Of a stretch of 64,000 bases of DNA, positions 20,398 to 25,489 are shown piece by piece. The stretch covers positions 1 through 64,000 of the forward strand of contig NZ_LFCV01000092.1 in NCBI RefSeq assembly GCF_001037465.1, given 5' to 3'. Below the pieces are notes generated by a model. The model did no database searches and was not told the DNA's origin. It was given only the letters and a program-made list of their open reading frames with translations. The translations under genes were made by a program, and so were the position numbers. Numbering within the stretch: the stretch's first letter is position 1; every line of letters begins with the position of its first letter. The DNA is from Xenorhabdus khoisanae. GTDB lineage: Bacteria > Pseudomonadota > Gammaproteobacteria > Enterobacterales > Enterobacteriaceae.

Positions 20398-20473
20398 TGG
20401 TGGCCCCTGCTGGACTTGAACCAGCGACCAAGCGATTATGAGTCGCCTGCTCTAACCACTGAGCTAAGGGGCC
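20398..20473 (-). tRNA. ileX: tRNA-Ile(CAU), read as AUA after lysidine modification
   Basis: A 76-nt gene that folds as a standard cloverleaf: acceptor ggcccc/ggggcc, D-loop with AGCTCAGTGGTTAGAGC, anticodon loop CTCATAA (anticodon CAT), T arm with GGTTCAAGTCC, and an encoded CCA end. It is nearly identical to E. coli ileX/ileY. The C34 would be converted to lysidine by TilS so that the tRNA decodes AUA rather than AUG. The 3' end faces the prophage remnants, a usual site for integrases. Confidence 0.93.
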
Positions 20474-21535: not shown

Positions 21536-23386
21536 TTAGTCATCAAGGAAGCTGCGCAGTACTTCAGAACGGCTTGGATGGCGCAGTTTGCGCAATGCCT
21601 TGGCTTCGATCTGACGAATACGTTCGCGGGTTACATCAAATTGTTTACCCACTTCTTCCAGTGTATGGTCAGTGTTCATATCAATACCAAAACGCATACG
21701 CAGAACTTTCGCTTCACGTGCAGTCAGGCCAGCCAGCACATCGTGAGTTGCAGAACGCAGGCTTTCGGAAGTTGCAGAATCCAGCGGCAGTTCGAGGGTC
21801 GTATCCTCAATGAAATCGCCCAGATGTGAATCTTCATCATCACCTACAGGTGTTTCCATGGAGATTGGCTCTTTGGCAATTTTCAGTACCTTGCGGATCT
21901 TGTCTTCAGGCATCAACATACGTTCTGCCAGCTCTTCTGGTGAAGGCTCACGTCCCATTTCCTGCAACATCTGGCGGGAAATACGATTGAGTTTGTTGAT
22001 GGTCTCAATCATATGTACCGGGATACGGATGGTACGCGCCTGATCAGCGATAGAACGCGTGATTGCCTGACGTATCCACCATGTGGCGTAAGTTGAGAAT
22101 TTGTAACCACGACGGTATTCAAATTTATCAACCGCTTTCATCAGGCCGATATTACCTTCCTGAATCAAATCGAGGAATTGCAGACCGCGGTTGGTATATT
22201 TCTTCGCAATCGAAATAACCAGACGCAAGTTAGCTTCAACCATCTCTTTTTTCGCACGGCGGGCTTTCGCTTCACCGATGGACATACGACGGTTGATATC
22301 TTTGACCTGCTCAATGGTCAGGCCGGTTTCTTCTTCGATTTGGCGTAACTTTTGCAGGCTACGCATGATTTCTTCTTCAACTTCCAGCAACTTATCAGAC
22401 CATGGTTTGTTCATTGCTTTTGCAGCGGTGAACCATGTGTCAGTCGTTTCATTGCCAGAGAATAGCGTGATGAAGTTTTTCTTCGGCATTTTGCACTGTT
22501 CAACACACATCTTCATGATTTGACGTTCTTGAAGACGAACACGATCCATCATGGAACGCATGTTGTTGACCAGATAATCAAACTGTTTCGGTACCAGACG
22601 GAACTGTTTGAATACCTCAGATAAGGTCAATATTTCTGCTGCGGTACTTGGATGACTGCGCCCGTGCTTCTTGATTGACTGACGGGTCAGTTCATATTGT
22701 TCACGCAGTTCCAGAAACTTCTGGCGCGCCAGTTCTGGATCAATGCTGTTATCATCGTCGCTGTCAGTATCATCCTCGCGCTCTTCATCGTCATCCTCTT
22801 CGTCGTCGTCAAGCTCTTCCTGAGGAAGTTCTGAGCCAACGTGAGTCGCTGTTGGTGCGAGATCTTCTTCTGCATTAGGATCGACGAAACCCGTGATTAA
22901 ATCAGACAGACGGCTTTCGCCGGCTTCAACGCGATCATACTGCTCCAGCAGATAAGTAATCGCTTCAGGGTATTCGGCAACGGAGCACTGCACTTGGTTG
23001 ATGCCATCTTCAATGCGCTTTGCAATGTCAATCTCACCTTCGCGAGTCAGTAACTCCACCGTACCCATTTCACGCATGTACATGCGAACAGGATCGGTGG
23101 TACGACCGATTTCTGACTCGACACTGGATAACACTTGCGCAGCCGCTTCTGCCGCGTCTTCATCGGTGTCGTTTGTGTTTTCTGCCAACATGAGATCATC
23201 AGCATCAGGTGCTTCTTCCATTACCTGGATGCCCATGTCATTGATCATTTGGATGATATCTTCTATCTGATCAGAATCGACGATATCTTCCGGCAGATGG
23301 TCATTGACCTCAGCATAGGTCAGATAGCCTTGCTCCTTACCTCGGGTGACAAGTAGCTTTAGCTGTGACTGCGGGTTTTGCTCCAT
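21536..23386 (-). CDS. rpoD: RpoD, primary sigma factor (sigma-70)
   Basis: A 616-residue housekeeping sigma factor, directing RNA polymerase to most promoters. Region 1.1 opens [20 protein letters not shown]. An acidic stretch ([20 protein letters not shown]) lies in the non-conserved region. Region 2 has [20 protein letters not shown] and region 4 ends with the helix-turn-helix [20 protein letters not shown]. The start at 23386 is the E. coli-like start; the open frame runs 23 residues further without support. It is the last gene of the rpsU-dnaG-rpoD operon, with an inverted-repeat element and two leader hairpins in front. Confidence 0.97.
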
Positions 23387-23474
23387 AAGACGGTATCCAC
23401 ACTTCAGAGTATTGGTTGGTGTCGGTCGGCGAAACAAATATGCCAACAATAACATTTGGGGGCGGTTTCATTGT

Positions 23475-23520
23475 ATTGCCGCTGCCCTCAATAGCGGCAA
23501 TCGTAGGGCTGTCTCCCTAC
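23475..23520 (-). promoter_or_regulatory. Two stem-loops in the dnaG-rpoD leader
   Basis: The first hairpin is attgccgct/agcggcaat and the second gtaggg/ccctac, in tandem about 90 bases before rpoD. In E. coli this junction is an RNA-processing site that sets different levels of DnaG and RpoD; these stems may do the same. Confidence 0.4.
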
Positions 23521-23576
23521 CTAATGCGGCAGTTAAGCCGTGAATTCTGTATCAGAGTGATTTTACACTTGGTATA

Positions 23577-23740
23577 GAACCTGTTTCATCAAGCTATATT
23601 TCTTTAAAAAAATATATTTTCAAAAAATTATGTTTTTCAAAGATATATTTTCACCCAGTGATGTTACGGACCTAAACGTATTGAGTAAGTAAGCCAAGTA
23701 ATATAGTCTTCATACAAATATAGCTTGTTGAGACAGATTC
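23577..23740. repeat. 164-bp MITE-like element with about 25-bp inverted ends
   Basis: The left end gaacctgtttcatcaagcta and on to 23601 is repeated in inverted form at 23716-23740 (about 22 of 25 positions match). The interior is AT-rich and non-coding. The right end touches the dnaG stop codon. It resembles a non-autonomous transposable element; I see no matching transposase or second copy in the window. Confidence 0.65.
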
Positions 23741-25489
23741 TTATTTCCTCGCACCAGATTCCGTAATTAAGCGGACTTCTTCCCGTTCTTCTGGTGTCAG
23801 TCCTTCTGTCCTCTCTTTGGCCATCAGAAAGTTAAAACGTTCATCAAGGGCTGACGCGAAAAGATGGTTCAGCGCATCGCTGAAAGTTTTCTCAGCAATT
23901 TCTTCTATTTGTATATCGTTCCATGCAGCGAGTTTTTCAAGCTGTGTTGCATACTTATTATCGCGATACTGCTCTAAAAGTTGCCCGGTCGTTAAACCCG
24001 GTTGGGCAAGGCACGTGTCGACAAGCTCTATAAATAACGGTAACCCCGCTACCTGAGCAGAAAACATTCCCTGTAATGAAGGAACTAATGTCGCTAAATG
24101 CGGATTCTGCACCAGCAATGCGATAAGAATACGCATTGTTGTTGGTTTCAGTTTTAGCGCCTGATATGTATTGGTATCTTTTTTGACAAGTTTTGCCAAA
24201 GATCGTTCCAATTGTGTTGTATCAGGTATGCCAAGCAGTTTTCCAATTTCTTGGAGCAAGTAGAGCCGCAGTGCTTCCCCAGGAATTTGACTAATCAGCG
24301 GCATAGCAAGTGAACTGAGTTTGGTCGCACCTTCTGGGGTACTCAAATCTACCTGTGGCAATAGCGATTCAAACAAGAATTCAGATAAGGTTAATGCTTT
24401 CTGCATTCTTTGTTCGAACGTCGCTCGTCCTTCCTTGCGAACCAGTGAATCTGGATCTTCGCCATCAGGCAAGAACATAAAACGTAATTGTCGACCATCA
24501 TTCAGATAGGGTAACGCTGTTTCCAGTGCCCGCCAGGCAGCATCACGGCCTGCACGGTCACCGTCGTAACAACAGATGACATTATCCGTTGTGCGGAAAA
24601 GTAGCTGAATGTGTTCGGCTGTCGTAGATGTTCCCAACGAAGCCACGGCATAGTCAATGCCAAATTGGGCTAACGCAACAACATCCATATAACCTTCAAC
24701 CACCAATAGCTTTGAAAGCGTATTGTGGCTCTGCTGCGCTTCATAAAGACCATATAATTGGCGGCCTTTATGAAATATTTCTGTTTCCGGTGAGTTCAGA
24801 TACTTGGGAAGTGCATCTCCCAGAACTCGGCCACCGAATGCAATTACACGACCACGACGATCGCGAATTGGGAACATCACACGTTCGCGGAAACGATCGT
24901 AAGTGCGGCCATTGTCGTTAGTGACCAGCATTCCTGCGTCGTTGAGTTGTTTGCGATCTTCCCCATTATGGGCAAAGCGTTTTAGCACGTTGTCCCACCC
25001 AGCCGGCGCAAAGCCGATGGCAAAGCGCTGGATGATCTCTTCACTGAGCCCACGTTGAGCCAGATATTGCCGGGCTGACTGAGCGCCGGGAATTGTCAGT
25101 GAATGCTGATAGAAGCCGTTGAGCTTATCCATCAGTTGGTAAAGATTTTGCCTTTGGTGGCGTTCAATATGACCACCGCCGGAGCCTGCTTCATAGGGAA
25201 CTTCCAGCCCGTGCATTGCCGCCAGTTCTTCGATGGATTCGACAAAGTCTAATCTGTCATAATTCATCAAAAAATCGATAGCATTGCCATGAGCACCACA
25301 ACCGAAGCAATGGTAAAACTGTTTATCGCCATTAACGGTGAATGAAGGAGTTTTTTCGTTATGAAAAGGACAGCACGCCTGATGGTTTTTGCCTTTCTTT
25401 TTGAGAGGCACTCTTACATCGATCAAATCAATGATATCGGTTCTTGCTAATAAGTCATTGATAAATGCGCGTGGAATTCGTCCAGCCAT
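23741..25489 (-). CDS. dnaG: DnaG, DNA primase
   Basis: A 582-residue replication primase, making the short RNA primers for Okazaki fragments. An N-terminal zinc finger (CCPFHNEKTPSF, then CFGCGAHG) sits within the first 70 residues. The Toprim domain carries VVEGYMDVVALAQFG (acidic Glu) and YDGDRAGRDAAWRALE. The C-terminal part (about 450-582) is the DnaB-helicase-binding domain. The length is standard. It follows rpsU by 114 bp in the macromolecular synthesis operon. Confidence 0.97.
   Translation of the reverse strand: MAGRIPRAFINDLLARTDIIDLIDVRVPLKKKGKNHQACCPFHNEKTPSFTVNGDKQFYHCFGCGAHGNAIDFLMNYDRLDFVESIEELAAMHGLEVPYEAGSGGGHIERHQRQNLYQLMDKLNGFYQHSLTIPGAQSARQYLAQRGLSEEIIQRFAIGFAPAGWDNVLKRFAHNGEDRKQLNDAGMLVTNDNGRTYDRFRERVMFPIRDRRGRVIAFGGRVLGDALPKYLNSPETEIFHKGRQLYGLYEAQQSHNTLSKLLVVEGYMDVVALAQFGIDYAVASLGTSTTAEHIQLLFRTTDNVICCYDGDRAGRDAAWRALETALPYLNDGRQLRFMFLPDGEDPDSLVRKEGRATFEQRMQKALTLSEFLFESLLPQVDLSTPEGATKLSSLAMPLISQIPGEALRLYLLQEIGKLLGIPDTTQLERSLAKLVKKDTNTYQALKLKPTTMRILIALLVQNPHLATLVPSLQGMFSAQVAGLPLFIELVDTCLAQPGLTTGQLLEQYRDNKYATQLEKLAAWNDIQIEEIAEKTFSDALNHLFASALDERFNFLMAKERTEGLTPEEREEVRLITESGARK

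Follow-up and report, generated by a model that had tools for sequence, protein, structure and literature searches.

Between the genes for primase and the primary sigma factor of Xenorhabdus khoisanae lies a short inverted-repeat element that begins directly after the stop codon of dnaG (Table 1). This border separates a low-abundance from a high-abundance message of one operon, and the question is whether a MITE hairpin can be part of the control of a primary sigma factor. As a class, such an element is ordinary; it is of interest as a possible domestication. A datable, genus-wide insertion at the dnaG stop, with filled, decayed, and empty sites among its relatives, provides a natural test set for this question.

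Table 1. Features of the dnaG-rpoD junction, with positions in the window (the whole 64,000-nucleotide stretch that was analyzed).
Feature	Position	Strand	Remarks
Element, 164 bp	23577..23740	-	Arm pairing, fold, orthologous in 24/24 clade A Xenorhabdus
Hairpin 5' arm, left terminal inverted repeat	23716..23740	-	
Hairpin 3' arm, right terminal inverted repeat	23577..23601	-	Slower-changing arm
Loop	23602..23715	-	AT-rich
dnaG stop codon TAA, left copy of 3-bp flanking repeat	23741..23743	-	
Right copy of flanking repeat	23574..23576	-	TAT in X. khoisanae, TAA in 19/24 species
dnaG (primase)	23741..25489	-	
rpoD (primary sigma factor)	21536..23386	-	MEQNPQSQ start
Conserved structured rpoD leader	23387..23548	-	Present with or without the element

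An earlier note on this DNA had described a 164-bp MITE-like element with inverted ends of about 25 bp, directly abutting the dnaG stop codon upstream of rpoD. Arm pairing and shuffle-tested folds confirm the ends, which are imperfect repeats, gene coordinates confirm the position, and the boundaries agree with those inferred from relatives (TAA-GAATCTG...CAGGTTC-TAA). We take the upstream gene to be dnaG from its sequence and context; the start of rpoD was set by MEQNPQSQ, a start common to the relatives that were read, and the gap between the two genes is 354 nt. On the strand of the dnaG-rpoD mRNA the element reads GAATCTGTCTCA...TGAAACAGGTTC. As in a MITE, it is short, has terminal inverted repeats, and carries no transposase gene, and no open reading frame of at least 60 amino acids is listed within it.

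Arms of 33 nt (23576-23608 and 23709-23741), separated by 100 nt, are 82% complementary. When positions 23570-23750 were folded as RNA, the mRNA strand reached -44.9 kcal/mol (mean of 200 shuffles -26.4, z -4.8) and the plus strand -43.3 kcal/mol (mean of 200 dinucleotide shuffles -24.4, z -4.9), with no shuffle as low in either case. The predicted stem on the mRNA strand comprises 23 pairs, with TAA-GAATCTGTCTCAACAAGCTATATTT paired with AAATATAGCTTGATGAAACAGGTTCT in its outer part, and the loop holds imperfect repeats. These data place a predicted hairpin in the message, immediately after the dnaG stop.

Age and distribution of the insertion

The closest named relatives of the rpoD protein are those of X. 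anantnagensis (L061) and Xenorhabdus sp. (L062), at 97%. The dnaG-rpoD gap was taken from all 30 Xenorhabdus genomes (X. khoisanae and 29 others) and compared across a tree of dnaG and rpoD sequence from which the gap was excluded, built by a quick method without bootstrap. The tree separated clade A (24 species) from clade B (6 species), with SH-aLRT values of 95 and 98. The arms were present at the identical site in 24 of 24 clade A species, with loops that varied. Among the six clade B species, the element was absent in three (G301 and G316, with a nearly identical short junction, and G315, with an unrelated gap) and reduced in one to a remnant of about 30 nt that resembles both element ends (G306). 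The remaining two (G300 and G305) hold a segment of similar length for which the outer stem was not predicted; a model of the clade A element gave E 0.073 on G300 (86 kb searched) and did not report G305. The tree does not place G301 and G316 (loci L197 and L185) as sisters, yet they also share the C-terminus of dnaG, a pattern suggestive of recombination.

The site was empty in the four Photorhabdus loci that were read (4/4), where TAA-A(T/C)ACTGAATTCACGGC contains a single TAA and no insert. No similar insert was found in 20 loci from other genera of the family, three of which (L215, L216, and L221) hold other extra sequence. The dnaG-rpoD gaps of X. anantnagensis (L061, 2720-2830), G315 (L189), and another genus (L221) presumably contain inserted ERIC-like elements.

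In clade A, the left flank is the TAA of the dnaG stop in 24 of 24 species, and the right flank is TAA in 19, TAT in two (X. khoisanae and G295), and TCA in three. That TAA brackets the element in 19 of 24 species, set against the single TAA in 4 of 4 Photorhabdus, indicates a target-site duplication of which X. khoisanae has an altered right copy.

Judged from these junctions, comparison shows that the insertion postdates the split from Photorhabdus and predates the radiation of the larger Xenorhabdus clade, and that the element is lost or decayed in clade B. A comparison of rpoD leaders with those of relatives lacking the insert, as the earlier note had proposed, thus had such relatives in Photorhabdus, but revealed an old rather than a recent insertion, shared by 24 of 24 clade A species. 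Since the insertion is old, vertically inherited, and without a near-identical copy, the element is either a relic or co-opted.

Change and pairing in the hairpin

Persistence in 24 of 24 species, together with a slowly changing 3' arm, suggests that the element has been preserved for its RNA hairpin, which would serve in processing or protection. Collectively, our analysis makes it probable that the element is an ancient and immobile relative of miniature elements that inserted at the dnaG TAA and was kept as a hairpin of the dnaG-rpoD mRNA with a working at the RNA level. A different explanation is that it is a dead MITE and neutral relic, which persists because deletions beside dnaG and rpoD are rarely tolerated and because intergenic DNA near essential genes changes slowly. 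We regard this as possible but rather unlikely. Its loss or decay in all six clade B species is as expected of a relic, but clade A has kept the element in every species while the loop between 30-nt arm windows ranges from 27 to 225 nt.

The rate of change points in both directions. With change counts placed on the tree of the 24 clade A species, the 5' arm accumulated 1.68 changes per site and thereby matches the spacer, in keeping with a relic (1.75 changes per site in 22 species, G295 and G317 being left out because of extra inserts). The 3' arm, at 0.62 changes per site, is about as slow as the conserved rpoD leader (0.55), which argues against a relic. For the loop, 38 of 243 columns could be aligned and had 3.03 changes per site, 115 in all, versus 57 in 49 columns for the arms; third codon positions had 3.5 (dnaG) and 4.3 (rpoD) changes per site. 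Within a subclade of seven species, the contrast was small (0.24 and 0.12 for the arms versus 0.38 for the loop).

Pairing was likewise examined. Among the 13 species counted, 95.2% of stem cells held standard pairs, which speaks against a relic. Two pairs were changed on both sides, a number reached by 19 of 500 shuffles (13 species), and covariation support for the stem is weak, as would suit a relic. Changes of Watson-Crick pairs to G-U, which keep the pair, numbered 15 versus 10 changes to C-A, which break it (p 0.21); in the outer stem alone, a cut chosen afterwards, pair-keeping changes outnumbered pair-breaking changes by 15 to 6 (p 0.039). Together, the change rates and pair-keeping counts lend modest support to a role at the RNA level, strongest for the 3' arm, and selection on the hairpin is partly supported.

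Relationship to a family of miniature repeats

Plain similarity searches had implied an element confined to a single locus, a view that was replaced once a link to a repeat family through the ends emerged. A blastn search of the X. khoisanae genome returned no second copy approaching full length. Across the 30 genus genomes, 35 of 47 matches were at dnaG-rpoD; the other 12 covered query positions 20-82 only, that is, AT-rich loop with at most seven inner arm bases, and were set aside. The same holds for a family-wide search of 295 genomes, of which 102 were matched at E <= 0.01, mostly through loop matches in small, presumably AT-rich genomes.

The arm pattern was searched for as well. In one search, 16 of 39 matches were at dnaG-rpoD and the other 23 were a recurring GAACCT[TC]TATCAGCAAGGCTA, one per genome; in a further search, 24 of 25 were at dnaG-rpoD, and the remaining one (G012, L262) lies within what we take by eye to be a transporter-like frame. 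The Photorhabdus match to the arm pattern might have been due to chance, but this was rejected given its conservation in 12 of 12 genomes, which pointed to a family. A covariance model of 13 dnaG-rpoD elements (R1) recovered the locus in 23 of 24 clade A genomes (13 of the 24 are in the model) and in none of the six clade B genomes; on G311, which has the longest loop, it gave misplaced fits only. In Photorhabdus, R1 matched G423:C1:3427131 (E 5e-4) and, weakly, a hairpin in the acnB leader (E 0.08 to about 7) and a site upstream of pdhR in G419 (E 2.7). The names acnB and pdhR, like aceE and zapG below, were assigned by eye and are presumptive. Weak model matches at L305, L307, and L308 were judged to be noise; some 180 bases from its weak match, L307 also has a distinct family fragment of 51 bases.

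A mixed model that included dnaG-rpoD rows and the Photorhabdus matches (R2) was run on 12 Xenorhabdus and 12 Photorhabdus genomes. At E <= 5 it had matches in 23 of 24 genomes, with 6-18 per Photorhabdus genome (two strands of one place may count twice). This set holds nine 152-bp Photorhabdus copies that differ in their flanks and match a common core at 98-100% identity. In X. khoisanae, five further R2 places were read, namely C89 (E 0.015), C33 (0.05), C186 (0.13), C108 (0.57), and C145 (1.0). C89 and C145 are clear family copies because both match the 152-bp core (78% over 106 bases, E 3e-17, and 80% over 110 bases, E 1e-21). C33, C186, and C108 are weak matches (R2 E 0.05-0.57), C186 being a 53-bp hairpin with GCCTGTCTCAACAAGC / TTGATGAGACAGG, similar to the arms at dnaG-rpoD.

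The link between element and family was examined with a third model (R3) from 12 family copies, none at dnaG-rpoD or acnB; these copies were found with R2, which contains dnaG-rpoD rows, and the link is therefore not fully independent. On the 30 dnaG-rpoD loci (99 kb, both strands), R3 had 25 matches at E <= 10, all on the element. They fell in 19 loci, all of clade A, and spanned both ends in 18; the best E was 1.2e-5, nine loci had E <= 0.05, and the X. khoisanae locus had 0.099. In reverse, R1 assigned scores to most of the 40 family loci read. Of 32 whole genomes searched with R3, 29 were matched at E <= 1, two Photorhabdus having 20 and 22 matches; the matches listed include the dnaG-rpoD copies of G298 and G299 (E about 5e-4) and not that of X. 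khoisanae. The X. khoisanae genome had six R3 matches at E <= 1, the best of the five listed being C110 (E 1.6e-5).

The ends themselves were compared with those of the 152-bp family. At the left end of the X. khoisanae element, 11 of 17 bases are identical and the other six are transitions, and the right end likewise, the two ends of one hairpin being non-independent in this comparison. Of 196,980 17-mers in the same loci, elements included, 116 reach at least 11 identities to the left end. The early-branching G299 agrees with the family at 15 of 17 bases of the left end; weaker left-end cases are G297 (6 of 17) and G248 (7 of 17). Terminal repeats are thus shared with the 152-bp repeat, on evidence (R3 and R1 searches, end comparison) that is circular in part. 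The interior is unrelated: blastn of the element found no such copy in the 30 genus genomes, and the 152-bp core had no match in the dnaG-rpoD loci at E <= 1e-8. Because ends are shared and the interior is not, the element is a relative by its ends rather than a member of the 152-bp subfamily. Both are of similar size with TAA/TTA flanks; the dnaG-rpoD copy differs in occupying one site per genome and in being vertically inherited.

Some IS5-family groups usually have a 3-bp repeat of the TAA/TTA kind. The nine full-length 152-bp Photorhabdus copies, recognized by their interior, have TAA on both sides in seven cases, TTA on both sides in one, and TTA with a left copy one base off in one; L376, a full-length copy from Xenorhabdus, has no such repeat, its flanks being TTA (left) and GTA (right).

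It is improbable that the element was never mobile, in which case the hairpin would have arisen in place at the 3' end of dnaG and its family likeness would be convergence. The X. khoisanae genome has no second full-length copy, the loop is unlike the 152-bp interior, and the imperfect loop repeats could reflect local growth, all of which would fit such an origin. Nevertheless, both X. khoisanae arms differ from the family ends by transitions only, the R3 matches in the dnaG-rpoD loci are confined to the element, and TAA brackets the element as it does family copies elsewhere. As for its MITE-like nature and the further copies that the earlier note called for, family ends, a 3-bp repeat, an empty site in the sister genus, and decayed, end-sharing relatives in its own genome (R2 and R3) all fit, but the element is old and neither a full-length copy (blastn) nor a near-identical one was found.

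The 152-bp repeat is widespread among enterobacteria. In E. coli, 5375 of 5426 genomes were matched, at a median of five places, and of 5385 records, 5384 had a best place 80-90% identical to a 152-bp copy. Matches also occurred in 139 plasmid records and in 25 records of the phage collection. A copy in E. coli, flanked by TTA at either end, sits between qseG and glrK/qseE, and the E. coli K-12 record has no repeat annotation there. We presume the E. coli repeat to be RSA. Among the literature matches listed, titles and abstract openings mentioned neither the dnaG-rpoD element nor the name RSA for the 152-bp repeat.

Family hairpins were also observed near other genes. The hairpin in the acnB leader (L264-L275) is present in 12 of 12 Photorhabdus genomes, five rows of which were in the model. 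In seven Xenorhabdus (L378, L379, L380, L382, L384, L389, and L392), a zapG (yhcB)-like gene is preceded by a family hairpin of 65-66 bp, apparently at orthologous positions. Others lie between pdhR- and aceE-like genes in Xenorhabdus (L387 and L388) and upstream of pdhR in Photorhabdus (L306); in L387, an Rfam match to the tp2 sRNA (1322-1448) is about 50 bases from the hairpin.

Possible working in the dnaG-rpoD message

Under the reading of an immobile relative kept as an mRNA hairpin, the ancestor would have belonged to an enterobacterial miniature inverted-repeat family with ends GARYCTRTCYCARYARG and a 3-bp TAA/TTA flanking repeat. Once the lineage had separated from Photorhabdus, but ahead of the radiation of the larger Xenorhabdus clade, a copy would have landed at the dnaG stop codon TAA, and it would have been retained since as a 23-pair hairpin. 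Located right after the dnaG stop, the stem may mark the border between primase and rpoD in the message. It could shield dnaG mRNA as a barrier on the 3' side, be cut as a double-stranded site by an enzyme of the RNase III type, or do both, and the dnaG and rpoD parts of the message would thus be uncoupled after transcription. We infer this RNA function, and the involvement of an RNase, from sequence comparison.

The ends of ERIC differ in sequence from those of the dnaG-rpoD element. ERIC (IRU, RU-1) resembles it in being a short enterobacterial palindrome that, according to accessible parts of the literature, can act via mRNA when downstream of genes. Accessible passages of published accounts describe ERIC as having 5'-TA-3' termini and an inverted repeat of 7 bp (PMC2229807), ERIC copies at the 3' ends of Yersinia genes that unmask a site for RNase E and so affect transcripts (PMC10969869), and Yersinia ERIC hairpins that regulate neighboring genes (PMC2267715). 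YPAL (RU-2) of Yersinia is a palindrome of about 168 bp for which an influence on the RNA stability of upstream transcripts has been suggested, but, as excerpts of the same account have it, its inverted repeats are internal, it is not A+T-rich, and its flanking repeats are 3 to 26 bp (PMC2229807). The Correia (NEMIS) elements of Neisseria are also small, with inverted ends and transcript hairpins handled by RNase III (PMC2229807, PMC10969869, in part), which cuts a Correia-element transcript at its ends (PMC10969869, in part); they belong to another lineage and are likened to the element by description, not by sequence. MITE hairpins that are RNase III substrates or modify RNase E cleavage thus have precedents in the portions of these sources available (PMC10969869, PMC2229807).

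The earlier note had held that the element could change RNA processing or termination between primase and sigma-70. An effect on processing is plausible from sequence. Action on transcription, through an rpoD promoter or through termination behind dnaG, is very improbable: the loop has a 10-of-12 sigma-70-like match on the rpoD strand, but shuffles average 1.2 promoter-like sites (sd 1.2) versus three here and the loops lack conservation, and an intrinsic terminator is unlikely because the stem is not followed by a U-tract, the scan having found none on the rpoD strand and its sole terminator-like site lying on the other strand, outside the element.

More tentatively, it is conceivable that miniature mobile hairpins of one family were repeatedly fixed beside core operons of Xenorhabdus and Photorhabdus (dnaG-rpoD, pdhR-aceE, acnB, and zapG) and now serve as genus-specific modules of mRNA processing or stability, in which case the sigma-70 operon of one genus would be tuned by a domesticated transposable element.

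Downstream of the element, the rpoD leader had no Rfam match in 23387-23548. Elsewhere in the window, an Rfam match to the plastid ycf2 5'UTR (Plastid-ycf2; 20400-20473) lies on the opposite strand of a tRNA gene, below the gathering score, and is presumably spurious. The leader is strongly conserved across 12 loci of 11 genera (from L207-L228 and L185), with a consensus of several hairpins comprising 25 pairs, four of which are changed on both sides.
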